A program made the translations under genes and the position numbers. From a virus, in the IMG/VR virus record IMGVR_UViG_3300030406_000488, positions 1-24,159 of that record: 24,159 nt of DNA; one strand, written 5' to 3'. The notes below the pieces were generated by a model. That model saw nothing but the letters and a program-made list of their open reading frames with translations, ran no database searches and had not been told where the DNA came from. This document shows positions 377 through 19,003 of this stretch, piece by piece (the first letter of the stretch is position 1; every line of letters starts with the position of its first letter).

Positions 377-510
377 TGACAGAGCATAAAGATAAAATGA
401 AAAGAAAATATGCTATAAAAGAAATACAATATGCAGTTGATATTGCCACAGGGGATGATGGGCATATGGCTAACAAAGTAACAGAAATATTAGAGAATTT
501 TTATGACTGA
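376..510 (+). CDS. Small hypothetical protein, 44 aa
   Basis: ATG at 376 overlaps the preceding TAA by one base (TAATG). The frame runs to TGA at 508-510. The product is a short charged helical protein (MTEHKDKMKRKYAIKEIQYA at the N-terminus, ending in ENFYD). It is followed at once by the ATG at 503, so it sits in a chain of overlapping ORFs that fills this stretch without gaps. The family is not recognised. The main support is the packing and the absence of any other plausible frame. Confidence 0.6.
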   Translation: MTEHKDKMKRKYAIKEIQYAVDIATGDDGHMANKVTEILENFYD

Positions 511-682
511 ATATGATGTTCATAAAATGTATGCAGAGCAACAACAACGTGATAGAATTACAGCCCTTCATGCAAACAATGGGGTATTGACAGTTCATTT
601 TTCTGATGGTACTATTGAAATATGGAAACAAAATTGGCGAGGGAAGCTTAAACGAAAAGTAAAGAGAGAAAAAAATGATTAA
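503..682 (+). CDS. Small basic hypothetical protein, 59 aa
   Basis: ATG at 503 overlaps the upstream ORF by 8 bases, and the TAA at 680-682 lies inside the first codons of the next gene (ATG 675). The product begins MTEYDVHKMYAEQQQRDRIT, has a short beta-like middle (LTVHFSDGTIEIW) and a strongly basic tail (RGKLKRKVKREKND). The basic tail would suit nucleic-acid binding, but that is a guess. The family is not recognised. The overlaps on both sides support a real gene. Confidence 0.6.
   Translation: MTEYDVHKMYAEQQQRDRITALHANNGVLTVHFSDGTIEIWKQNWRGKLKRKVKREKND
587..615 (+). promoter_or_regulatory. Possible sigma70 promoter ahead of the TonB/TolA-like gene
   Basis: TTGACA (587-592, 6/6) and TACTAT (610-615, 4/6) are separated by 17 bases. 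Transcription would start near 622, about 50 bases before the ATG at 675. The -10 match is only moderate and the site lies inside a small ORF, so chance in AT-rich DNA is possible. Confidence 0.3.
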
Positions 683-1406
683 ATTTACAACAACAAAAGC
701 TATAGTATTAATTTATTTTGTAGTGTTTGGTTTTGTTACTTGGAGTGCTTATCAAGAAAATCAAAACGAACAAGAACAATTTAAAAATATTAATAAATTA
801 AATAATGATTTAATAAAAATATCTAGATTTTCAGAAACTAATGCGACAGATATTACTTATTTAGAATCGAAGATGAATGTTAAATCAAAGGAGTTAGACG
901 ATATTAACAGAAGATTAATAAAACTAGAAAAATCAGTTGACACGTTTACTCAAATGTATTTTAATACACAAAAACAAATAATTGCTAGTCAAGGTGTTGA
1001 GACAAATCCTCCTCCTAAAGCTAAATCCGAAACCCCTTCGGTTACAGATGGTACAAATGTAATAGATGACTCTCCACCTTCTGTAGTCTCAGCACCACCT
1101 CCTAGCACAATCAGTACCCCTAGAGAGCAAGAAGTTACAGGTCCCTCTATACCTTCTGTAATCAGTACAGCTTCTTGCCCTCGACCTCAACAAACTTTAG
1201 GAAGATATATAAATAATATTACTTTACGAAAAGATTATAGCTTTACGGTATCGTATGACATAATAGAAAAACAAGTAAATAATATTTCTTTTAATAAAAA
1301 TTTACCAACTAAGCTACAAAAAGCAATACAAAAATATTTAACATCTTTAGTGTTGACCGGAGACATATCCGGGTGTAAGCTACCCATCAAACTATTGCGA
1401 GGATGA
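675..1406 (+). CDS. Membrane-anchored TonB/TolA-like protein, 243 aa
   Basis: Parts in order: a short basic N-terminus and one hydrophobic segment (about residues 8-24), a charged helical or coiled-coil stretch (about 30-105), a Pro/Ser/Thr-rich linker (about 111-163), and a compact C-terminal domain (about 168-243). The last part reads as strand (KDYSFTVSYDI), strand (QVNNISFNKN), helix (PTKLQKAIQKYLTSL), strand (CKLPIKLL), which is the order of the TonB/TolA C-terminal fold. It has one Cys at each end (168 and 234), which could form a disulfide. This predicts an inner-membrane anchor with its body in the periplasm. TonB and TolA have this architecture, but the assignment here rests on pattern only, with no alignment. 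A generic phage membrane protein with a Pro-rich linker is the alternative. Confidence 0.6.
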   Translation: MIKFTTTKAIVLIYFVVFGFVTWSAYQENQNEQEQFKNINKLNNDLIKISRFSETNATDITYLESKMNVKSKELDDINRRLIKLEKSVDTFTQMYFNTQKQIIASQGVETNPPPKAKSETPSVTDGTNVIDDSPPSVVSAPPPSTISTPREQEVTGPSIPSVISTASCPRPQQTLGRYINNITLRKDYSFTVSYDIIEKQVNNISFNKNLPTKLQKAIQKYLTSLVLTGDISGCKLPIKLLRG

Positions 1407-1407
1407 T

Positions 1408-1617
1408 ATGATTTACAAATTAAATGAAAGTCAATTTAGAGAATGGCAACAATACTCTATTGATATACAAGAAGATTTATACAAGAACAAAGCAGGATTT
1501 ATGAATGAGTATGATGGTAAAGATACATTTACTGTATATTTTCATGACTGCGAAGTTTCACAAGAAGTTCAAGACTTCTTTGAAAAAAAGCTTGACTTAC
1601 AACCAGAGATAAGTTAA
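1408..1617 (+). CDS. Hypothetical protein, 69 aa
   Basis: ATG at 1408 follows the upstream TGA by one base, so the two genes are probably translated together. The product is small and acidic, with a helical N-terminal half (NESQFREWQQYSIDIQEDLY) and a short strand-like middle (DTFTVYFHD). It has a single Cys and no export signal. I do not recognise the family. Its 3' end carries the -35 and most of the -10 of the likely promoter for the ssDNA-binding protein gene. Confidence 0.65.
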   Translation: MIYKLNESQFREWQQYSIDIQEDLYKNKAGFMNEYDGKDTFTVYFHDCEVSQEVQDFFEKKLDLQPEIS

Positions 1618-1647: not shown

Positions 1648-2097
1648 ATGGCAGTTGCAGATGGCAATGCTTATTGGGCGAGCGTAACAGTTCCCAACAC
1701 TACTTTTGAACCAGTCTATACTGTGGACCTAGTAATTAGTGATGAAGATGCACAAGCATTTCAGGCTAGAGGTATTACAGTCAAGGACTTTAGTTTAAAA
1801 GATGAAGATGGCACACCTCAATATATAGGTAAGGCTATTACAATAAAAAGAAAAGTAAATGGTAAGAACGGACCCCGTTTAGCTCCAAAGCTTTTCAATA
1901 AATCTAAAGAGCCTATGGACGTTACTGTAGGTAATGGCTCTAAAGTTAGAGTTCAATACGATGAGTATCCTTGGGAATATGCAGGGAAATCAGGTATTAG
2001 TTTAGACTTTCAAGCCATGCAAGTAATAGATTTAGTTCCAATGAAGTCACAAGATGGTGACGAACTAAGCCCATTTGGTGATGGCGAGGAGTTTTAA
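1648..2097 (+). CDS. Single-stranded DNA-binding protein (T7 gp2.5 type), 149 aa
   Basis: The protein should coat single-stranded DNA at the fork and interact with polymerase and helicase through its tail. Visible support: a beta-rich, OB-like body with basic patches (KAITIKRKVNGKNG), then an acidic C-terminus ending in an aromatic residue (DGDELSPFGDGEEF), the hallmark of phage and bacterial SSBs. It lies directly before primase-helicase and polymerase, as gp2.5 does in T7-like genomes. It is shorter than T7 gp2.5 (232 residues). The start has the best ribosome site of the early block (TAAGGAG, 6 bases upstream) and a likely promoter of its own, which fits a protein needed in large amounts. 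The stop overlaps the next ATG. Confidence 0.8.
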   Translation: MAVADGNAYWASVTVPNTTFEPVYTVDLVISDEDAQAFQARGITVKDFSLKDEDGTPQYIGKAITIKRKVNGKNGPRLAPKLFNKSKEPMDVTVGNGSKVRVQYDEYPWEYAGKSGISLDFQAMQVIDLVPMKSQDGDELSPFGDGEEF

Positions 2098-2414: not shown

Positions 2415-4091
2415 ATGCACTATATGAATAATAATCCTAATTTTGTAAAGATGCATCAGCCCTGCCCTAGTTGTGGCAGTAGCGATGCATTAGCAATTAA
2501 TGAAGATGGTTCTACTAAATGTTTTTCTTGTGGGAAGTTTACTTCTAAACACAGCACGAACATTCAGAGAACTCCAATAACTAGTAAACCAATTACGAAA
2601 ATGCCAGAAACTTTTGACAACGGAACATACGCACCTCTTACAGATAGGTCTATATCTAAAGAGACTGCTATGAAATATGGAGTAAAAGTTATCTACGATT
2701 CTCAAGGTCAACTAGTACAACACAGATATCCTTATCATATTAACAACGAGCATGTTGGGACAAAGATAAGGTATGTCAAAGATAAAGACTTTAAGTTCGA
2801 GGGAACTATGACCGGTTCTAGTTTGTTCGGACAACAACTCTTCAAAGAGGGCGGTAAGTATCTTACCATCGTTGAAGGAGAGTGCGATGCTATGGCCACG
2901 TATGAACTGCTAGGTTCTAAATGGGCGGTAGTATCTATAAAGAATGGAGCTCAAGGAGCAGTTAGAGACATCAAAGATAACATCGAGTATGTAGAAAGCT
3001 TTGATAATATTGTCATTTGTTTTGATAATGACAAACAGGGTAAGGAAGCTGCAAGAAAAGTAGCAAGCGTAATCAAACCACGCAAGGCTCGTATCGTGAC
3101 CATTCCCAATGGACATAAAGATGCGAACGACATGCTTAGAAAAAACTTACATGCTGAGTTTACGAGGGCATGGTGGGATGCAAAGGTGTATACTCCTAGT
3201 GGTATTATCCGGGTATCAGATAAAAAATCTTCTTTCCTTGACCGAGAAAAGAAAGAGAGCGTACCTTATCCTTGGCATGGTCTTAACAAAAAGCTTGTAG
3301 GGCTTCGACAAGGTGAACTAATGACTTTAACAGGCGGAACGGGTCTAGGTAAGTCATCAGTCACTAGAGAGCTTGAGCATTGGCTAATAAATAAAACCAA
3401 TGACAACGTGGGTATTATAGCCCTCGAAGAAGATTGGCGAAGAACAGTAGATGGTATATTATCTATTGAAGCTGATGCTCGGCTCTACATTGACCACATA
3501 AGAGATAGCTATGATAAAGGAGAACTTGTCAGCATGTTTGACAAAACCTTCAGTTCCGATAGAGTTTTTATTCATGCTCACTTCGGGACCAATGATATAG
3601 AAGATATATTTTCTAAGCTTAGATATCTTATTGTGGGTTGCGATTGTCGTTGGGTAGTCGTGGACCACCTGCACATGCTAGTCTCAGCCACAACAGAGGG
3701 CGATGAAAGGCGGGCTATAGATTCCATTATGACTAGGCTTAGAAGTTTAGTTGAGGAAACAGGTGCAGGTATAATCTTGGTATCGCATTTACGAAGAGTA
3801 TCAGGAGACAAAGGACATGAGAATGGAGTAAGTGTAAGCTTATCACATCTTCGTGGGTCTAATGCGATTGCCCAACTCTCTGATTGCGTTATAGCTTTAG
3901 AGCGTAACCAACAATCAGAGGATGACTTAGAAGCTCGTACCACACGATTAAGAATACTGAAATCAAGATACACAGGTGATGTTGGCTTGGCCACCTCATT
4001 AGTGTATGATAAAGATACAGGTAGGCTTGCAGAGTATGAGGATACAGAGCTTCTAAACTCTGAATTAACTGATATGGATGTTCCCTTTTAA
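2415..4091 (+). CDS. T7 gp4-type DNA primase-helicase, 558 aa
   Basis: The protein unwinds DNA at the fork and makes RNA primers. The zinc ribbon has Cys 17, 20, 36 and 39 (CPSCG...CFSCG). The TOPRIM primase core has EGE at 154-156 and DND at 204-206. The RecA-like hexameric helicase has Walker A GGTGLGKS (307-314), Walker B WVVVDH (Asp 417), motif LVSHLRR (455-461) and an arginine finger in LKSRYTGD (Arg 518). The tail is acidic and ends in Phe, as in T7 gp4, where it binds the polymerase. Length is close to T7 gp4 (566). ATGs at 2415, 2424 and 2451 could all be used. None has a clear Shine-Dalgarno, and the first touches the preceding terminator. All keep the zinc ribbon. 2424 (MNNNPNF) is a reasonable alternative. 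Confidence 0.95.
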   Translation: MHYMNNNPNFVKMHQPCPSCGSSDALAINEDGSTKCFSCGKFTSKHSTNIQRTPITSKPITKMPETFDNGTYAPLTDRSISKETAMKYGVKVIYDSQGQLVQHRYPYHINNEHVGTKIRYVKDKDFKFEGTMTGSSLFGQQLFKEGGKYLTIVEGECDAMATYELLGSKWAVVSIKNGAQGAVRDIKDNIEYVESFDNIVICFDNDKQGKEAARKVASVIKPRKARIVTIPNGHKDANDMLRKNLHAEFTRAWWDAKVYTPSGIIRVSDKKSSFLDREKKESVPYPWHGLNKKLVGLRQGELMTLTGGTGLGKSSVTRELEHWLINKTNDNVGIIALEEDWRRTVDGILSIEADARLYIDHIRDSYDKGELVSMFDKTFSSDRVFIHAHFGTNDIEDIFSKLRYLIVGCDCRWVVVDHLHMLVSATTEGDERRAIDSIMTRLRSLVEETGAGIILVSHLRRVSGDKGHENGVSVSLSHLRGSNAIAQLSDCVIALERNQQSEDDLEARTTRLRILKSRYTGDVGLATSLVYDKDTGRLAEYEDTELLNSELTDMDVPF

Positions 4092-11216: not shown

Positions 11217-13328
11217 TTATAGATTTGGTTGCATATCAAGCATATCCTCCAATCTATTTAAGCTAGAACTAGACAATCCATAAAAAGCCTGTGTATTATC
11301 ATTAATAGAAGCACTAGCATAAATAGCACGAGGTTCATACCACGTAGTCTGTTGAGGAATTTGAAGCTCTCTATAGCTATCAAACCCTGCAACATAACCT
11401 AAATAAGCAACAAGAGTTGTACTGTCCGCATATTCTCCTGTTTGTTCCTGTTCTTGTTCGGCTTGCTGCTGTTGTTCTTTTATATTATTTGCAATAATTT
11501 GGTCAGCAACTTGGTCAGCTTCACTAGCTGTCATGACTCCTGATACTGCTGTGTCTATTTCTCCTTGCATATTTTGTACCTGTACATCAGCTATCATAAC
11601 TTGAGGAGAATCATCAATCGTAGGCAGAGGAGTAATACTAAAACTCGTTGACCCTCCAACATCGCTCATTGATAACACTTGATTAGTCTGTACATTTGCA
11701 GAAGTAATTTGTTCTGAAATGCTAGGTGAATTAGATGTACTGATTCCTGCTCCGGAAGTGCCTCCAGAAGCTCCATAAGTGCCCGTAGAGCTACTTATAT
11801 TATTAGACCCTCCACCTGAGTAAGATGAGCTATTTCTGCTGTTAGAAACGCTGTATGAGCTTACGCTATTTGAAGCAGTTCTAATAGTTCCTGCTACAAC
11901 ATCTAGGGCAGAGACTCTTACTGAGCTTTTTTCTTCGGTGCTCTCTTCGTTGATTTCTTCTTCTGCTTCGGCATATAACTCTTCATGCTCTTCTTCCAAG
12001 ATTTCAACTTCTTCTTGAAGCTCTTCCAAAGTTTCTTCGAGTTGCTCTTCAACTTCTTCCATTGCTTCCGCAAGTTCTTCTTCATCGATTTCATTATTTC
12101 TAAGTTCATTTTCTATTTCCTCTCTTATAATTTCAAACTCAAATATTTCTATTAAATCATTTGTAGGTATAAATATTGCAGGCTCATCAATGCTTTCAAA
12201 GCTTACTATATACTCTTCTTCTATAACTGGTAAAGATTCTTCAATAAATATTTCTTCAAAGTATATTTCTTCTTCTTGTATATCTTCAAACATAAGAACA
12301 AATATTTCTTCTTCATATTCAGGCTCTATAAATATATAATCTTCTACAGGTTCTTCATACCATTCTTCTTCAAATAAAAACTCTTCGTAGTATTCTTCTT
12401 CTTCATAACCATAATCAAACTCATCTTCAACAAAATAAGCTATTGATTGCTCCTGTTGATATCCTGCACAAAACGGAGCGTACTGTGGGTCTTCATCACA
12501 TTGTTGGTCATCATAGGCTTCCCAATATAACGGACATGCCATATCATACAAAGAATCTAAATTACATTGTTGTGCTAAGTAAGCTGCTGCATAGCCTGCA
12601 CAACTAGAATCATTTAGAGGGTCACTACAATCTATGGCATTGCCTGAACCTACTCCGTATAAACTACCACCATTCTCCAATGATGTATTACTAGCTGTAC
12701 CATTCCAATCTGTATTTACACATGTACCTGTGATGTTTGTTGTACCTGTATTACATTCATCATGAAAAAGGTACTGATAATATTGTGATGTACTTCCTTG
12801 CTCACCTATTAAAACATCATGATTTATAATATCTAATGCACCATATCTATATTCAAATGTATTATTGGTCCAAAGAATAACTTCAAAGCTATTATCAGAT
12901 GCCCTGTTGTACTCTCGCATATCATACCAACCAAAGACTGCTTTATCATTAAAGTTCTTGGCAAGCATCTTAGATTGACTGTCTCTTATCAAGTCTGTCC
13001 AGAATACAAACATTGTATTTGTATACTGAGGTAGAGGGTCAGGTGTGTAATCACCACAATAATTATTGTAATTTACATTGCCTGTGCCTAAACCAAAGTG
13101 TAGACAACCATTCGTAGCCATACGAGCAGAGTCATACGCAGTACCATAAAATGTAAAAGAGTTATCTAAATTAAATGCTGCTGATAACTGGTCATCGCCT
13201 GCATTTAAATTTGTAGTTCCTGTTTGAGTTGTAAGGTCAATCAAAGATTGATTGCCTTCATAAATATATGTAGAGCTAACTAGTGTGCTAAAACACAGTA
13301 GACTACTGACTATAAAATTCTTTAGCAC
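11217..13328 (-). CDS. Secreted multidomain protein with Cys repeats and a Glu-rich stretch, 703 aa
   Basis: Residues 1-19 are a Sec signal peptide (MLKNFIVSSLLCFSTLVSS), with no convincing lipobox. Residues about 20-205 look like a beta-sandwich of the NIDO/adhesion type (FNLDNSFTFYGTAYDSARM, then NGCLHFG, then FVFWTDL). Residues 234-290 hold three Cys-x(8-9)-Cys-x-x-Tyr repeats. Residues about 298-465 are extremely Glu/Tyr/Phe-rich and then coiled-coil. Residues 468-535 are Ser/Gly/Asn-rich. The C-terminal part (about 540-703) has a Gln-rich segment and a compact end (YLGYVAGFDSYRELQIP, YEPRAIYASAS). The host would export it before lysis. The start overlaps the Thr-Asn-repeat gene by 26 bases, so the two are probably coupled. 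Function unknown: envelope modification, cell-surface display or a virion decoration are options. Confidence 0.85.
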   Translation of the reverse strand: MLKNFIVSSLLCFSTLVSSTYIYEGNQSLIDLTTQTGTTNLNAGDDQLSAAFNLDNSFTFYGTAYDSARMATNGCLHFGLGTGNVNYNNYCGDYTPDPLPQYTNTMFVFWTDLIRDSQSKMLAKNFNDKAVFGWYDMREYNRASDNSFEVILWTNNTFEYRYGALDIINHDVLIGEQGSTSQYYQYLFHDECNTGTTNITGTCVNTDWNGTASNTSLENGGSLYGVGSGNAIDCSDPLNDSSCAGYAAAYLAQQCNLDSLYDMACPLYWEAYDDQQCDEDPQYAPFCAGYQQEQSIAYFVEDEFDYGYEEEEYYEEFLFEEEWYEEPVEDYIFIEPEYEEEIFVLMFEDIQEEEIYFEEIFIEESLPVIEEEYIVSFESIDEPAIFIPTNDLIEIFEFEIIREEIENELRNNEIDEEELAEAMEEVEEQLEETLEELQEEVEILEEEHEELYAEAEEEINEESTEEKSSVRVSALDVVAGTIRTASNSVSSYSVSNSRNSSSYSGGGSNNISSSTGTYGASGGTSGAGISTSNSPSISEQITSANVQTNQVLSMSDVGGSTSFSITPLPTIDDSPQVMIADVQVQNMQGEIDTAVSGVMTASEADQVADQIIANNIKEQQQQAEQEQEQTGEYADSTTLVAYLGYVAGFDSYRELQIPQQTTWYEPRAIYASASINDNTQAFYGLSSSSLNRLEDMLDMQPNL
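11934..12437 (-). repeat. Glu-rich low-complexity coding stretch (gaa/gag-rich)
   Basis: On the + strand this reads as dense ttc/ctt/ttcttc runs. It encodes residues about 298-465 of the secreted 703-residue protein, first Glu with Tyr, Phe and Ile, then a coiled coil with regular Leu and Glu (EEQLEETLEELQEEVEILEE). It is biased in composition rather than a tandem repeat with one fixed unit. Confidence 0.7.
12459..12629 (-). repeat. Three tandem Cys-pair repeats of about 21 residues
   Basis: Within the secreted 703-residue protein, units start at Cys 234, Cys 255 and Cys 277. Each has Cys-x(8-9)-Cys-x-x-Tyr, and the first two continue with a second Tyr and a Gln-Gln before the next Cys (CAGYAAAYLAQQC, CPLYWEAYDDQQC, CAGYQQEQ). 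Paired Cys in an exported protein suggest disulfide-stapled helical hairpins. Confidence 0.7.
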
Positions 13329-14361
13329 AAGTTCGTCCTGATTTCTTTTTACCTTGAGAGTTTCTTTGTGTCTTACAATGTTTAATGTATTTATCTTTTA
13401 ATTCTTGATAGTCAGGCCTGTCATGTTTATTTTCTTTCCAAGCTTGTGAAGCTTCTTTACCTATCTTACCTTGATATGGGCAAGGTGTGCCTGCCATTTC
13501 CATTGCAGTAAACACTCTAGGGTCTTGACAAAGAATAGATACAGAAGCTACTTTCATGCCAGTATCATAGAGATATTTAGAAAGTTTTAGACGTTCACAG
13601 TTTTCGTCACGTACCGCCTTACCGCCTGAAATACCAAATATCTGCCCTTGAAAAGCCCCGGATACTCCTGTGGTACATAAGTCTTGAGAGTAAGACATGA
13701 TACTAGGAGCAATAGCAGAAGCCGGAGGAGCTTTAGTTTTAACATTTTGGTTTATAGTTTGGGTAGAATTTGATTCGTTAATATTTCTGTTAGTATTATC
13801 AGATACGGTATTGTTGTTATTGGTATTATTATTCGTGTTATCAGTCGTGACATTTGATTCGGAAGTAGATTGATTTATATTTGTGTTATTGTTTGTATTT
13901 GTAGCAACTGATGTATTGTTATTTGTATTAGTATTATTTGATGTGCTTGTATTATTAACTGTTTGATTTACTGTAGAGTTATTTGTACTAGTAGATGTAT
14001 TAACATTTGTATTAGCATTAGTACTTGTTGAAGTTGCAGTTGATGTATTTGTATTTATATTAGTATTATTATTAGTATTAGTACTAGTATTCGTATTTAC
14101 ATTTGTGTTGTTATTAGTATTAGTATTTGTATTAGTATTGGTATTAGTTGAGGTATTAGTATTTGTATTCGTATTTGTATTAGTGTTAGTATTTGTATTA
14201 GTATTTGTATTCGTATTTGTATTAGTTGTAGTTGTGGTGTTAGTAGTCTCTAAACTATTTTGCTCACAGTATTGTTCACCTGCAGTACAGTCTCCTGTTT
14301 GGTCTGCAGATAAATTTAAAGTAAAAATAAATAATCCTAAAGCCCCTAATAATTTTTTCAT
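13303..14361 (-). CDS. Secreted Thr-Asn-repeat protein with conserved-looking Cys domain, 352 aa
   Basis: I place the start at the ATG at 14361 (GGAGAGAGG just upstream), because MKKLLGALGLFIFTLNLSA is a clear Sec signal peptide. A TTG at 14385 would add eight residues before it. Parts (numbered from this ATG): signal peptide 1-19, short Cys-bearing segment, Thr/Asn low-complexity tract about 39-205, then a folded domain (about 218-300) with Cys, Gly and helix pattern (SQDLCTTGVSGAFQGQIFG, ENCERLKLSKYLYDTGMKVA, SILCQDPRVFTAMEMAGTPC) and a very basic tail with two more Cys. The Cys domain looks like one I associate with secreted proteins of other marine phages, which I cannot verify here. The tract would be extended and could be glycosylated. 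Function is unknown. Confidence 0.85.
   Translation of the reverse strand: MKKLLGALGLFIFTLNLSADQTGDCTAGEQYCEQNSLETTNTTTTTNTNTNTNTNTNTNTNTNTNTNTNTSTNTNTNTNTNTNNNTNVNTNTSTNTNNNTNINTNTSTATSTSTNANTNVNTSTSTNNSTVNQTVNNTSTSNNTNTNNNTSVATNTNNNTNINQSTSESNVTTDNTNNNTNNNNTVSDNTNRNINESNSTQTINQNVKTKAPPASAIAPSIMSYSQDLCTTGVSGAFQGQIFGISGGKAVRDENCERLKLSKYLYDTGMKVASVSILCQDPRVFTAMEMAGTPCPYQGKIGKEASQAWKENKHDRPDYQELKDKYIKHCKTQRNSQGKKKSGRTCAKEFYSQ
13747..14247 (-). repeat. Thr-Asn tandem repeat tract with a 6-base period
   Basis: On the + strand the tract reads as repeats of GTATT followed by A, T, C or G (densest at about 14110-14223), i.e. alternating Asn (AAY) and Thr (ACN) codons on the coding strand. Toward 13747 the pattern degenerates to Asn/Thr/Ser. 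A 6-base unit keeps the frame when copies are gained or lost, so the length can vary without breaking the protein. Confidence 0.9.
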
Positions 14362-14442
14362 CCTCTCTCCAAGTTTAAAGTGCAATTTCCCTGTGAAGCT
14401 AACAATAGCGTTCTTTAAATTACCTCTTAGTTTTTTGTATCG

Positions 14443-15319: not shown

Positions 15320-15348
15320 ATTATACACTTATTTAAACAAGTTGTCAA
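15320..15348 (-). promoter_or_regulatory. Perfect sigma70 consensus promoter of the lysis-like unit
   Basis: On the - strand TTGACA (15348-15343) and TATAAT (15325-15320) match in all twelve positions with a 17-base spacer. The -35 lies in the last codons of the 1224-residue gene (Leu-Asp-Asn), and the spacer covers its stop. Initiation is expected around 15314-15313, the first bases of the 49-residue ORF, which would make that mRNA leaderless. Confidence 0.75.
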
Positions 15349-18300
15349 GGAAACTAAGCATTTGTTTTGTAGTTGTTCCAGATTTAAAATCATAGTCTGC
15401 TAATTTAATAGCTTTTTGAACGTCTTCTTCATTTTCAAAGTAATAATCCATGTCACTACCTTCTCTACGACCTATAGCTCTTAACAAACCTCTATCGCCT
15501 TCTCTGGTGTATAAATCTCTTGCTTCATCAATATAACCTTGTACATCAGGATTATAATTTTCTTCTCCTTTCTTACCTGTTGCCCTTTGTATTTTTTCCT
15601 GTACAGTTCCTTTACGCCCACCACCAAGATACTCTGTCACTGCATGACCAAACGGGTCGTCAGTATCCGCATACCTTTTTAGTTTTGTTTTCATATCCCG
15701 TAAAGGAGCTCGCATTCCTGCAATCTTACTATCAAAGGCTCCAAATCTATTACCTTGCTCTCCACCATAAGTTTTTCCCGGTACAAAGCCCGCCCAATAA
15801 TCAAACTTAGCTTCTATATTTCCAAAGTTATTTGCTCTACCACCATTGCTGAACCCAAGCCTATCCATTTCTTCTTGATAAGGTTCACCAGTAAATTTAT
15901 TTATTCTGAAAGCAGGGTTTTCTTTTGTAAAAGGAACTTTGTCACCTTCAACAAAACCACCAGTCACAAACTGTGCTCTATATTCGTAGGGTTGTCCGGT
16001 GTATGGGTCAACACGTATAGAACCACCAGTAGCTCTAAGAAGTCTTTTAGGTTCGTCTTCTTTACCTGCAACAAACTCTGCTACTTCTCTAGTCGTTCCT
16101 CTAATTTTTTTAGTTGCTTCTTTAGCTGCTTGCTGCATAGGTGTATAAGGCTCTCTAAAGCCTGTATATTCTTCCATGATATCACCCACAGCTCTATCAA
16201 AAATATTCTTTGTACCTATTAACGGAGCTTTACGAGCTGCTGTTTCTAACAAACCTCTATTGTAGAATGCAAGACCTATAATGTCATTTATAACGGGGCC
16301 GCCAACTCCGGCAGAAGCTAGTAAAGGATTCTGACCATAAGCCATTCCTTCGGCTACTCTAACACCATATTCAAGCGGACCTAAAAGCCCAACTCTTTGA
16401 AAAGCTTTTAATGTATCTCTCCAGTCTTCACCATCACGTTCAATACGCTCTCTGTTTTCTTCTGAGGTTCTCCAATAGTTTGTAGCTTTTGCTACGTTAG
16501 TAGCCATTACTGCGAAGGCAGCTATCTTTGGAGCGTTTACAGTTGGGTCAGTAATAATATCTCTAGCAAAGTTTTTAAGAACAGTATTACCAAACACTGT
16601 AGGATATCTTAAAAACTGTGTGAATATATCTACTCTAGGATTTGTCATGTAGGTTGGAACTGTGCCGAACTCTCTAGAGGTTTGTAAGATTATGGAGTTT
16701 GTAAATCTACCTGCACCTTTAACAATATCTCTATAAAAAGGATTTTTTCTATCTGCTCCTTCTTCTAACCACTTAATACCTTGTTCAACATTAATACCTA
16801 AATCAAACAACTCTCCTTTTAGTTTCTGTACTTCAACAGAAGGTGTAGCACTAATTCTTTCTTCTCTACTAACCTTGCTAAGTTTTTTTAAGTTTTCTGT
16901 AATTAAATCTTTACCTGTAGAAAACGAAGCAAGCTGTACAGTTTTTGTCCAAGGAACCAACAAGTTAAATCTATAAAATCTTCTAGCTTGTTTTTTCAGA
17001 AACTCATTCTGTAATCCCTCTCCTGCTAAACGATTCGTCACATCACCCATTGCTTCATCAACAGCAATAAATACACTGTTCATTTCTCTACGGATTTCAT
17101 CGTCAGTTAAATTATGTTTTTCTTTTAGTATCTGACCTACTTCATCTGTAAAAATTTTATGTCCTCTCGTAACTCCTTCTTGTACTCCTTTAACTGCGGA
17201 GCTTACTGGAGCTTTTGCAAAAGGTATTAAGGCCTCTGTAACAGATGAAATAGTTGCAAGCGGTAGATAAGCCATTGCATTAGCTAACTTAGTTGTATCA
17301 TAGATACCTTGTATTAAACCACTATCAAAGTAGTCTACTTGTCCTGTAATAGATTTGTAGACGTTAATAATATCTTTTTTATCTTTAGCAGTTAATGTAA
17401 TATTTTTTTCTGCTAGTTCTTCTTCAATAGGTTTAATAAATCTATCAACAAATTGGTCTTCATTGTTTCGTTTAAATAATATTAAACTATCCTTATCTGT
17501 CTTCCCAATAACTTTAGTATCTTGACCGGGACTTAAAAAATGCTTTCTGTGCTCAATAGTCTTTGCAGCATTCATATAGTAATTAGTTGTCACCGGGACT
17601 AAATCATTTGTTAAAAACTTTGCAAACTTATTATCATCTAAATTTTCAAACACACGGGCTTGTGTTAATAGATTCGAATGAGAGCCATAAAGTTCGTTCT
17701 GCTTGTTAAGCATACCATCTACAACTTCTTTCACTTTGTTTTCAGGAACAATATTGTTAGAAACTAACAAAGCTTCAAATTCTTCACGTCCTTTTTTAGA
17801 AGCAATAACTTCTCTGTTCCATTGTCTAGGAAAATAATTTTCTATTTTTTGTGGATTTAAACCAACTTCAATTGCATCTTCTCTAATTTTATCAAAAAAC
17901 CCTCGTAGGTCTTCTGCAACCTTTTGTACATTTTTACTGTATTGTGATACGTTTTTTTCACCCCTTAAAATCTTTATAACTGCAGCTTCATCTTCAGGTA
18001 ATATTTGTCCAGACTTTCTAATCGGAGCTACAATAGCATCAAAGTCTAATAGGTAGTTTCCTCTTCTTTCTCCTAAGTCTTCCGCATAACTAAAACCAAG
18101 TCTTCTTGTAGACCTTTGTGTTAGTCCTTTACCAAACTCATGTGTAAATTTTTGTCCGAGCATTCTAGCAGTAGGAGAAAACTCTGCCATAGTTTTTAGA
18201 ACTCTTGCAGGACTACCAATACTTTTACCTAATATTTTATCTTTAGCCTTTCTAAATTTATACTTTGTTTCTTCTATACCTGTAACACTTCCTCGATAGT

Positions 18301-19003
18301 CATCATTAGAATAAAGCCTACTAAGCCTATCATTAAACAAAGCATTACGCTGTACTAAGTTACCAACAATCCCACCAGTTAAAGCACCAATAGCAGCAGA
18401 ACCGGCAAGCTCTGTATTGGAGTAGAGTCTGCGAATGTCTGTATTGAGTTCTGTGTTTTGTCTAAAGTGATTATCTAATCCTGTCCACGTACCTACTTCT
18501 GCCCCTGTAATTAAAGAAGCTTTACGTATTTGACTTTTACCTAAGTCTTCAAGATTGTTTTTAGCAATAGCTTTGGCACCTTTAAGTCCGGCAGTAGCTA
18601 TTCCTTGTCTAGCTGCAAGAGAAGTTCCACCTGTAATTGGTGTTAAGAATGCTGCTGCAATTGCTGTAGGGTCGGTAGCTATGTCAATAGTGGCATCTTT
18701 GATAAGCTCTGCATATTGTTTGAAGCTACCCATGTCTGCGTTATCAAAACGATTACGCAAATAACGATAGTCTTTTTTTTGTTGCTTAGTAAACTTTCCG
18801 CTATCTGAGGCACGTTGCATGCCTTGAAAGAGATTAAAGTCAGCGTCTCTTAAATACTCAAAAACATCATCAGAGTTTTCACCAATAGATTCTAAGAATC
18901 TTTCGGATACTTTTTGAAACTCATCATTTTGTTCTAAGTCATCTAAGGTGTAACCTTGAAGTAAACGAGAAGTTTTACGTCTTTTTGAAGAAAGTTTTGC
19001 CAT
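15329..19003 (-). CDS. Large putative internal virion (DNA ejection) protein, gp16-like by position and size, 1224 aa
   Basis: The N-terminal 110 residues are charged and helical. Then come long Ala/Gly-rich hydrophobic stretches (about 112-150, 195-217 and a third in the middle, NAMAYLPLATISSVTEALIPFA) that could enter membranes. The rest is helical. Near the C-terminus two related motifs, RVDPYTGQPYEY (997-1008) and RINKFTGEPYQE (about 1033-1044), lie 36 residues apart within Gly-rich segments. Size and place after the 635-residue gene match T7 gp16 (1318), which forms the ejection channel through the cell envelope. I see no clear transglycosylase catalytic motif, so lysozyme-like activity is not claimed. 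The role is from context. The ATG lies 2 bases after the upstream stop. Confidence 0.75.
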   Translation of the reverse strand: MAKLSSKRRKTSRLLQGYTLDDLEQNDEFQKVSERFLESIGENSDDVFEYLRDADFNLFQGMQRASDSGKFTKQQKKDYRYLRNRFDNADMGSFKQYAELIKDATIDIATDPTAIAAAFLTPITGGTSLAARQGIATAGLKGAKAIAKNNLEDLGKSQIRKASLITGAEVGTWTGLDNHFRQNTELNTDIRRLYSNTELAGSAAIGALTGGIVGNLVQRNALFNDRLSRLYSNDDYRGSVTGIEETKYKFRKAKDKILGKSIGSPARVLKTMAEFSPTARMLGQKFTHEFGKGLTQRSTRRLGFSYAEDLGERRGNYLLDFDAIVAPIRKSGQILPEDEAAVIKILRGEKNVSQYSKNVQKVAEDLRGFFDKIREDAIEVGLNPQKIENYFPRQWNREVIASKKGREEFEALLVSNNIVPENKVKEVVDGMLNKQNELYGSHSNLLTQARVFENLDDNKFAKFLTNDLVPVTTNYYMNAAKTIEHRKHFLSPGQDTKVIGKTDKDSLILFKRNNEDQFVDRFIKPIEEELAEKNITLTAKDKKDIINVYKSITGQVDYFDSGLIQGIYDTTKLANAMAYLPLATISSVTEALIPFAKAPVSSAVKGVQEGVTRGHKIFTDEVGQILKEKHNLTDDEIRREMNSVFIAVDEAMGDVTNRLAGEGLQNEFLKKQARRFYRFNLLVPWTKTVQLASFSTGKDLITENLKKLSKVSREERISATPSVEVQKLKGELFDLGINVEQGIKWLEEGADRKNPFYRDIVKGAGRFTNSIILQTSREFGTVPTYMTNPRVDIFTQFLRYPTVFGNTVLKNFARDIITDPTVNAPKIAAFAVMATNVAKATNYWRTSEENRERIERDGEDWRDTLKAFQRVGLLGPLEYGVRVAEGMAYGQNPLLASAGVGGPVINDIIGLAFYNRGLLETAARKAPLIGTKNIFDRAVGDIMEEYTGFREPYTPMQQAAKEATKKIRGTTREVAEFVAGKEDEPKRLLRATGGSIRVDPYTGQPYEYRAQFVTGGFVEGDKVPFTKENPAFRINKFTGEPYQEEMDRLGFSNGGRANNFGNIEAKFDYWAGFVPGKTYGGEQGNRFGAFDSKIAGMRAPLRDMKTKLKRYADTDDPFGHAVTEYLGGGRKGTVQEKIQRATGKKGEENYNPDVQGYIDEARDLYTREGDRGLLRAIGRREGSDMDYYFENEEDVQKAIKLADYDFKSGTTTKQMLSFLDNLFK

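Follow-up and report, generated by a model that had tools for sequence, protein, structure and literature searches.

A putative membrane tether with a predicted TonB/TolA-like C-terminal domain in uncultivated relatives of Pelagibacter phages

What might a virus gain from a small membrane-anchored protein, encoded among its replication genes, whose C-terminal end is predicted to fold like a force transducer of the bacterial envelope? TonB and TolA transmit force across the envelope, from the inner membrane to the outer, and are exploited by many phages and colicins. We analyzed a 243-residue protein, here called the tether, that is encoded in a stretch of viral DNA of 24,159 nucleotides (IMG/VR record IMGVR_UViG_3300030406_000488; hereafter the window). 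An initial annotation, made from the sequence alone, had assigned to this protein a TonB/TolA-like architecture, a claim that stands for the predicted fold and the order of the parts and falls for sequence or profile similarity and for the motifs through which TonB and TolA engage their motors. To our knowledge, no viral TonB/TolA-like C-terminal domain (CTD) has been described, and the literature and structure libraries searched showed no phage precedent for one.

The tether gene, its layout and its surroundings

An ORF check of the window returned an intact frame with an ATG start (Table 1). The tether gene begins within the last bases of the small upstream ORF, and the small downstream ORF and the gene of a gp2.5-like single-stranded DNA-binding protein (SSB) follow close behind, an arrangement that indicates a compact replication operon on the plus strand. 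The operon continues with genes for primase/helicase, DNA polymerase, exonuclease and both subunits of ribonucleotide reductase; the structural genes of the window lie on the opposite strand. Among the ORFs that adjoin the tether gene no motor gene (exbBD or tolQR) was recognized. A scan for promoters and terminators was uninformative, with 8 promoter-like sites against 11 expected.

Table 1. Features of the tether gene and its neighborhood, in window coordinates
Feature	Position	Strand	Observation
Tether gene, 243 aa	675..1406	+	Open frame; same locus kept in dozens of viral contigs
Small ORF upstream, overlapping the tether gene start	503..682	+	Homologues in relatives
Small ORF downstream	1408..1617	+	Adjoins tether gene in both clades; also in related phages without tether
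gp2.5-like ssDNA-binding protein (context)	1648..2097	+	PHROG 112, E 1.9e-9
Primase/helicase (context)	2415..4091	+	PHROG 239, E 2.7e-185
Predicted single transmembrane anchor, residues 4-26, N-in/C-out, no Ser-X3-His	684..752	+	Hydropathy; motif count 0/38
Predicted long helices/coiled coil, residues 27-106	753..992	+	AlphaFold2 helices 5-55 and 57-106, pLDDT about 63-76
Disordered Pro-rich linker, residues 107-165, varies among relatives	993..1169	+	pLDDT <50 over 106-163; alignment
CTD, residues 166-243, predicted TonB/TolA CTD-like fold	1170..1403	+	AlphaFold2, Foldseek; conserved
Cys168, invariant	1176..1178	+	-76 from C-terminus in 38/38
Cys234, invariant	1374..1376	+	-10 from C-terminus in 38/38

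The N-terminal membrane anchor that had been proposed was confirmed as a single hydrophobic segment at about residues 4-26, where the Kyte-Doolittle mean over 19 residues reaches 1.8; in later windows of the protein this mean never exceeds 0.95. Since Lys precedes the segment and acidic residues follow it, the positive-inside rule predicts an N-in/C-out topology. The coiled-coil stretch of the initial annotation reappears in the AlphaFold2 model as long helices that extend up to residue 106. The Pro-rich linker is likewise recognizable in the window's own protein, as a segment predicted to be disordered; in many relatives, alignment revealed a variable linker that is far less Pro-rich, and the description does not carry over to them. 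Hydropathy and the predicted helical and disordered spacer together give the tether the TonB/TolA-type plan of one anchor followed by a spacer (domain II).

Other genes of the window and of its relatives were noted as well. On the minus strand, the window encodes a 1224-residue internal virion-type protein (15332-19003) that matches PHROG 7348 (labelled endolysin) and virion structural families. Also on this strand are a 703-residue protein (11217-13328) whose start is signal-like and whose middle is rich in Glu and a secreted-looking 360-residue protein of Thr/Asn repeats (13303-14385), neither of which has a Pfam match. This pair occupies the place of a curli module found in some relatives, and similar pairs are present in genomes G003 and G006. 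In genome G004 the module (L152:13756-18532) consists, by Pfam, of CsgF, CsgG, a curlin-like ORF, FecR and a CHASE2-adenylate cyclase, and similar ORFs lie at 31.2-34.2 kb of G001. The G004 module matches the T8SS module of PMC9599517, and members of the tether family are found in phages that have such a module as well as in phages that lack it. Genome G004 also carries a NifU_N-like (iron-sulphur scaffold) gene (L153:17737-18153; Pfam E 8.1e-39) adjoining the gene of the large terminase, with similar ORFs in G001, G003 and G006.

Predicted fold and sequence comparison

AlphaFold2 predicts for the CTD an alpha-beta-beta-alpha-beta arrangement (helix 173-179, strands 188-197 and 200-206, helix 212-224 and strand 231-240), with pLDDT values of 82-91 for the core block in the full-length model. 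When the domain was folded alone with 31 sequences, the same order of strands and helices was recovered (pLDDT 79, pTM 0.65). The full-length and CTD models then served as queries in a Foldseek search of 350,542 PDB chains. Every one of ranks 1-19 (full model) and 1-20 (CTD model) was the CTD of a TonB-family protein or of TolA: E. coli TonB alone, with FhuA and with BtuB, the TonB proteins of P. aeruginosa, N. meningitidis and H. pylori, HasB, FusB, and TolA, which ranked lower than TonB. The best probabilities were 1.00 (full model) and 0.97 (CTD model), and the first unrelated fold appeared at about 0.06 or less. Note that even the best matches were only moderate, with E-values of 0.01-0.1, TM-scores of about 0.5-0.57 and identities of 10-18%. 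A library of viral structures gave no convincing match (best probability 0.57, to an unnamed protein). The agreement between structure prediction and structure search upholds the TonB/TolA-like C-terminal fold of the initial annotation, and we regard it as quite probable that the CTD adopts this fold.

Comparisons of sequence gave a different result. Pfam returned no match for the tether protein, its relatives or the CTD, and the TonB_C family (PF03544) was absent at E<=10; scans of the protein and its relatives with Pfam and PHROGs yielded only marginal or chance coiled-coil matches. When the PDB was searched by sequence with profiles of the full-length protein and of the CTD, neither TonB nor TolA was retrieved, and the CTD had no match. 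Profile-profile comparison of the CTD with 32 TonB CTDs and with the TolA CTDs of SAR11 bacteria was no better than with shuffled columns, while the positive control, SAR11 TolA against TonB, reached 76% probability. A second clade of relatives (see below) produced a local match to TonB over 9 columns that none of 60 shuffles equaled, a match that was not counted given its reported probability of 1%, and one HMM alignment with E. coli TonB followed the structural register at only 5 bits. The kinship suggested here between the tether and TonB or TolA is one of predicted fold only and does not extend to sequence or profiles.

Motor coupling of TonB and TolA is known to involve a Ser-X3-His pair in the anchor (the SHLS motif) and a D-box strand directly behind the anchor (PMC12215075, PMC10907165, PMC12204202), and the Ser-X3-His pair has been described as essential to this coupling (PMC12215075). 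The pair, which contacts ExbB or TolQ, was present in none of 38 distinct phage proteins, in contrast to all seven SAR11 TolA proteins and both E. coli controls. A D-box pattern, representing the contact with ExbD or TolR, was found in 7/7 SAR11 TolA proteins and in 2/38 phage proteins, in both cases within a predicted helix; the pattern is loose and was found in only one of the two E. coli controls. None of the 38 phage proteins displayed a convincing D-box-like strand behind the anchor. Because these motifs are missing, we do not class the tether as a motor-driven transducer. Its CTD may nevertheless make a contact of the same kind as that of TonB and TolA.

The tether shares with the CTD of TonB (E. 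coli 1u07, 2grx and 2gsk; HasB; FusB) the predicted fold and the order of its elements, and with TonB as a whole the single N-terminal anchor and, in the window's protein, the Pro-rich spacer. It differs in its low identity, in the lack of profile support, Ser-X3-His and D-box, and in having an invariant Cys pair and a long helix after the anchor. TolA (E. coli, SAR11) is among the fold matches and has in common with the tether an anchor, a helical spacer, a CTD and two Cys in the protein; however, the Cys residues of the tether lie elsewhere in the domain, the motor motifs are missing and no adjoining tol genes were recognized. The possibility that the tether is a captured host tolA gene was rejected, since Cys positions, motifs and profiles all differ from those of SAR11 TolA. 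Motor-driven transducers with a vWA domain (PMC12204202) provide another non-canonical version of the anchor-spacer-CTD plan. These keep the SHLS motif and change the CTD, whereas the tether keeps the predicted CTD fold and lacks the motor motif.

Conservation, shuffling and loss of the C-terminal domain

A scan of viral contigs with the primase identified 80 related loci. Tether homologues share one position, directly before the small gene and the SSB gene. Among the 42 loci whose sequence extends 1.4 kb or more beyond the SSB gene on its upstream side, 23 carry the gene or a remnant of it. Presence follows primase identity, with the gene or remnant in 22/22 loci at 81% identity or more and in 1/20 below 76%. 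Profile searches recovered 53 loci, and a profile of the CTD alone recovered 57, including more divergent ones. The conservation of the CTD that the initial annotation left to be checked is therefore evident among dozens of uncultivated relatives of Pelagibacter phages. Cultured phages yielded no homologue, and neither did genome contigs scanned with two short patterns only.

In a second clade (19 loci), the N-terminal half (MKIVTTLIALLTLVVGTNIF...) is unrelated, while the CTD is the same. Consequently, the CTD represents a module that is carried on at least two different membrane-anchored stalks. The paired Cys residues were present as first described, and all 38 distinct members have exactly two Cys, at fixed distances from the C-terminus. 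Median pairwise dN/dS (Nei-Gojobori, pairs with dS of 0.1-1.2) was about 0.42 for the CTD, 0.44 for the anchor and helix and 0.58 for the linker, in pairs that are not phylogenetically independent. The CTD is under purifying selection. Its retention across dozens of loci, this selection and the fixed spacing of the invariant Cys residues place the architecture of the tether beyond chance. In the 52.6-kb contig G003, parts of the tether gene occur at both ends (L158 start, L160 end; loci L104 and L121), and the sequence contains some N close to the end. The genome may be circular or end-redundant and have been cut inside the gene, or there may be two divergent copies.

The CTD has also been lost. 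When compared to the nearly identical L016 (2161-2880), L017 (4448-4969) has a clean in-frame deletion of 198 bases that corresponds exactly to the CTD. In L013 the gene is truncated at the CTD, and in both L013 and L017 the N-terminal half stays in frame; L005, L007 and L042 retain only a remnant of the linker. The in-frame deletion and the remnants indicate that the tether gene is not essential. Losses of this kind are more readily expected of a gene for host interaction than of one central to lysis, and the repeated loss of the CTD with the frame kept suggests that the N-terminal half could have a function of its own. Related phages that lack the tether encode small anchor-and-helix proteins with no CTD upstream of the SSB gene (L065:1074-1388 and L057:4143-4379).

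The likely host and a proposed function of the tether

The cultured phages nearest by terminase are the Pelagibacter phages HTVC115P, HTVC103P and HTVC104P, with 66-67% identity to the terminase of G004; the primase of the window is about 45-46% identical to theirs. SAR11 is therefore the likely host group, as judged from these relatives. A sensitive profile search of HTVC115P and of the partial HTVC103P sequence found no tether homologue. The relatives are similar to Pelagibacter phages of the HTVC023P type (PMC9599517); the main text of that paper does not mention TonB or TolA.

Within the limits of what a Pfam profile detects, ExbD/TolR was present in 56, TolB in 58 and DsbB in 54 of 60 sampled Pelagibacteraceae genomes, and the plug of TonB-dependent receptors in 13 of 60. 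TonB_C was absent from all 118 Pelagibacteraceae genomes as far as its Pfam profile can see. The sampled loci have the gene order TolQ-TolR-TolA-TolB, with gene names presumed from family features and position. Since no recognizable TonB was found in SAR11, the host counterparts are most plausibly TolA and TolB. The TonB-dependent receptors of SAR11 genomes that lack a TonB_C match might be energized by a diverged TonB or by TolA. The two invariant Cys residues, together with DsbB in the host group, fit an exported and oxidized CTD, which is probably stapled by a disulfide.

We propose that the tether would be held in the inner membrane by its predicted N-in/C-out anchor and would span the periplasm with its long helix, a flexible linker carrying the CTD of predicted TonB/TolA fold into that space. 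There, through beta-strand addition, the CTD would bind a protein that ordinarily pairs with host TolA (or with an occasional Ton system); TolB and outer-membrane receptors are the most plausible candidates. Lacking the Ser-X3-His and D-box contacts to ExbBD or TolQR, the tether is most likely a motor-less competitor, and the link to the outer membrane would be uncoupled or held in infected cells. The benefit would be the exclusion of other phages or an altered envelope during infection. The initial annotation's suggestion that the protein could block or reroute Ton/Tol functions suits this anatomy and is plausible. A motor-less, periplasm-spanning tether that competes with host TolA or TonB for a partner is as a whole the best explanation we can offer, with a likelihood a little short of even; partner, competition and benefit within it are inferred. 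Somewhat more tentative is the wider proposal that SAR11-type viruses place a decoy force-transducer CTD, shuffled onto different anchors, in the periplasm to intercept TolB or outer-membrane receptors. Two clades with unrelated N-terminal halves share the CTD, which suits a functional module mounted on different anchors, and siting among replication genes and dispensability are as expected of a host-interaction gene. The motif counts (Ser-X3-His in 0/38 phage proteins against 7/7 in SAR11 TolA) and a host group with TolQ-R-A-B and without a TonB_C match fit competition as well. The lack of sequence or profile similarity to TonB/TolA, the moderate Foldseek scores, the predicted nature of the fold and the repeated loss of the CTD behind an N-terminal half that stays in frame count against it.

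Four other explanations were weighed. The tether could be an adaptor. Its CTD would then bind a periplasmic or outer-membrane protein made by the phage itself and keep that protein close to the inner membrane, with no competition with TolA or TonB. The envelope proteins encoded by tether-bearing relatives (the CsgF/CsgG pore, FecR and CHASE2-cyclase of G004, and the similar ORFs of G001) would be candidate partners, and a CTD with no sequence similarity to host TolA suits such a role. However, the window, G003 and G006 have other genes in place of the curli module and yet keep the tether, so no constant phage partner is evident, and we consider an adaptor rather unlikely. It is somewhat less likely again that the fold is mispredicted, or that it is a small beta-beta-alpha-beta fold that resembles TonB/TolA by coincidence and serves an unrelated function. 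This topology is simple, sequence support is absent, and Foldseek E-values above 0.001 and TM-scores of about 0.5 leave room for such an outcome; but two predictions agree, the best 19-20 matches among all chains searched belong to one family with unrelated folds far below them in probability, and the anchor, the spacer and the exported-type Cys pair match the same plan.

An anchor, a long helix and a periplasmic tip make up the plan of an i-spanin. A spanin-like protein of the inner membrane that used its CTD to grip the outer membrane as infection ends would agree with the two lysozymes that sit just upstream of the SSB gene in HTVC115P. Those lysozymes, however, have no tblastn match in the window or in four long relatives, the tether gene lies among replication genes and away from the late strand, it is absent or decayed in close relatives, and no gene of an outer-membrane lipoprotein partner was seen adjoining it. 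A role as lysis tether is thus improbable, and the idea of a lysis cassette, prompted by the HTVC115P lysozymes, found no support. Finally, a phage TonB or TolA that is driven by the TolQR motor of the host and might, for instance, open a channel in the outer membrane would account for the overall plan and could draw on the ExbD/TolR and the occasional TonB-dependent receptors of the host group. The absence of Ser-X3-His from every phage protein and of a D-box-like strand after the anchor makes an active transducer very improbable.

Phages offer partial parallels to the competition that we favor. The T5 protein Llp, a small outer-membrane lipoprotein, blocks the receptor FhuA. Llp and the tether are both phage-made envelope proteins that could block a TonB-dependent route; Llp acts on the receptor as an outer-membrane lipoprotein, whereas the tether is predicted to reside in the inner membrane. 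Exclusion by T5 is treated in PMC9586334. PMC4339652 describes the filamentous phage protein G3p (pIII) as binding the TolA CTD and competing with TolB. On that account, G3p shares with the tether the proposed interference with the TolA-TolB contact, as a precedent in the opposite sense: G3p binds TolA, while the tether would imitate the TolA CTD.

The analysis provides a structural hypothesis for a gene family that has no Pfam match and only marginal matches to PHROGs, and the idea is easy to test given that the CTD is small and self-contained. If true, it would define a new route by which phages take over the envelope of their host, in relatives of phages that infect one of the ocean's most abundant groups of bacteria.
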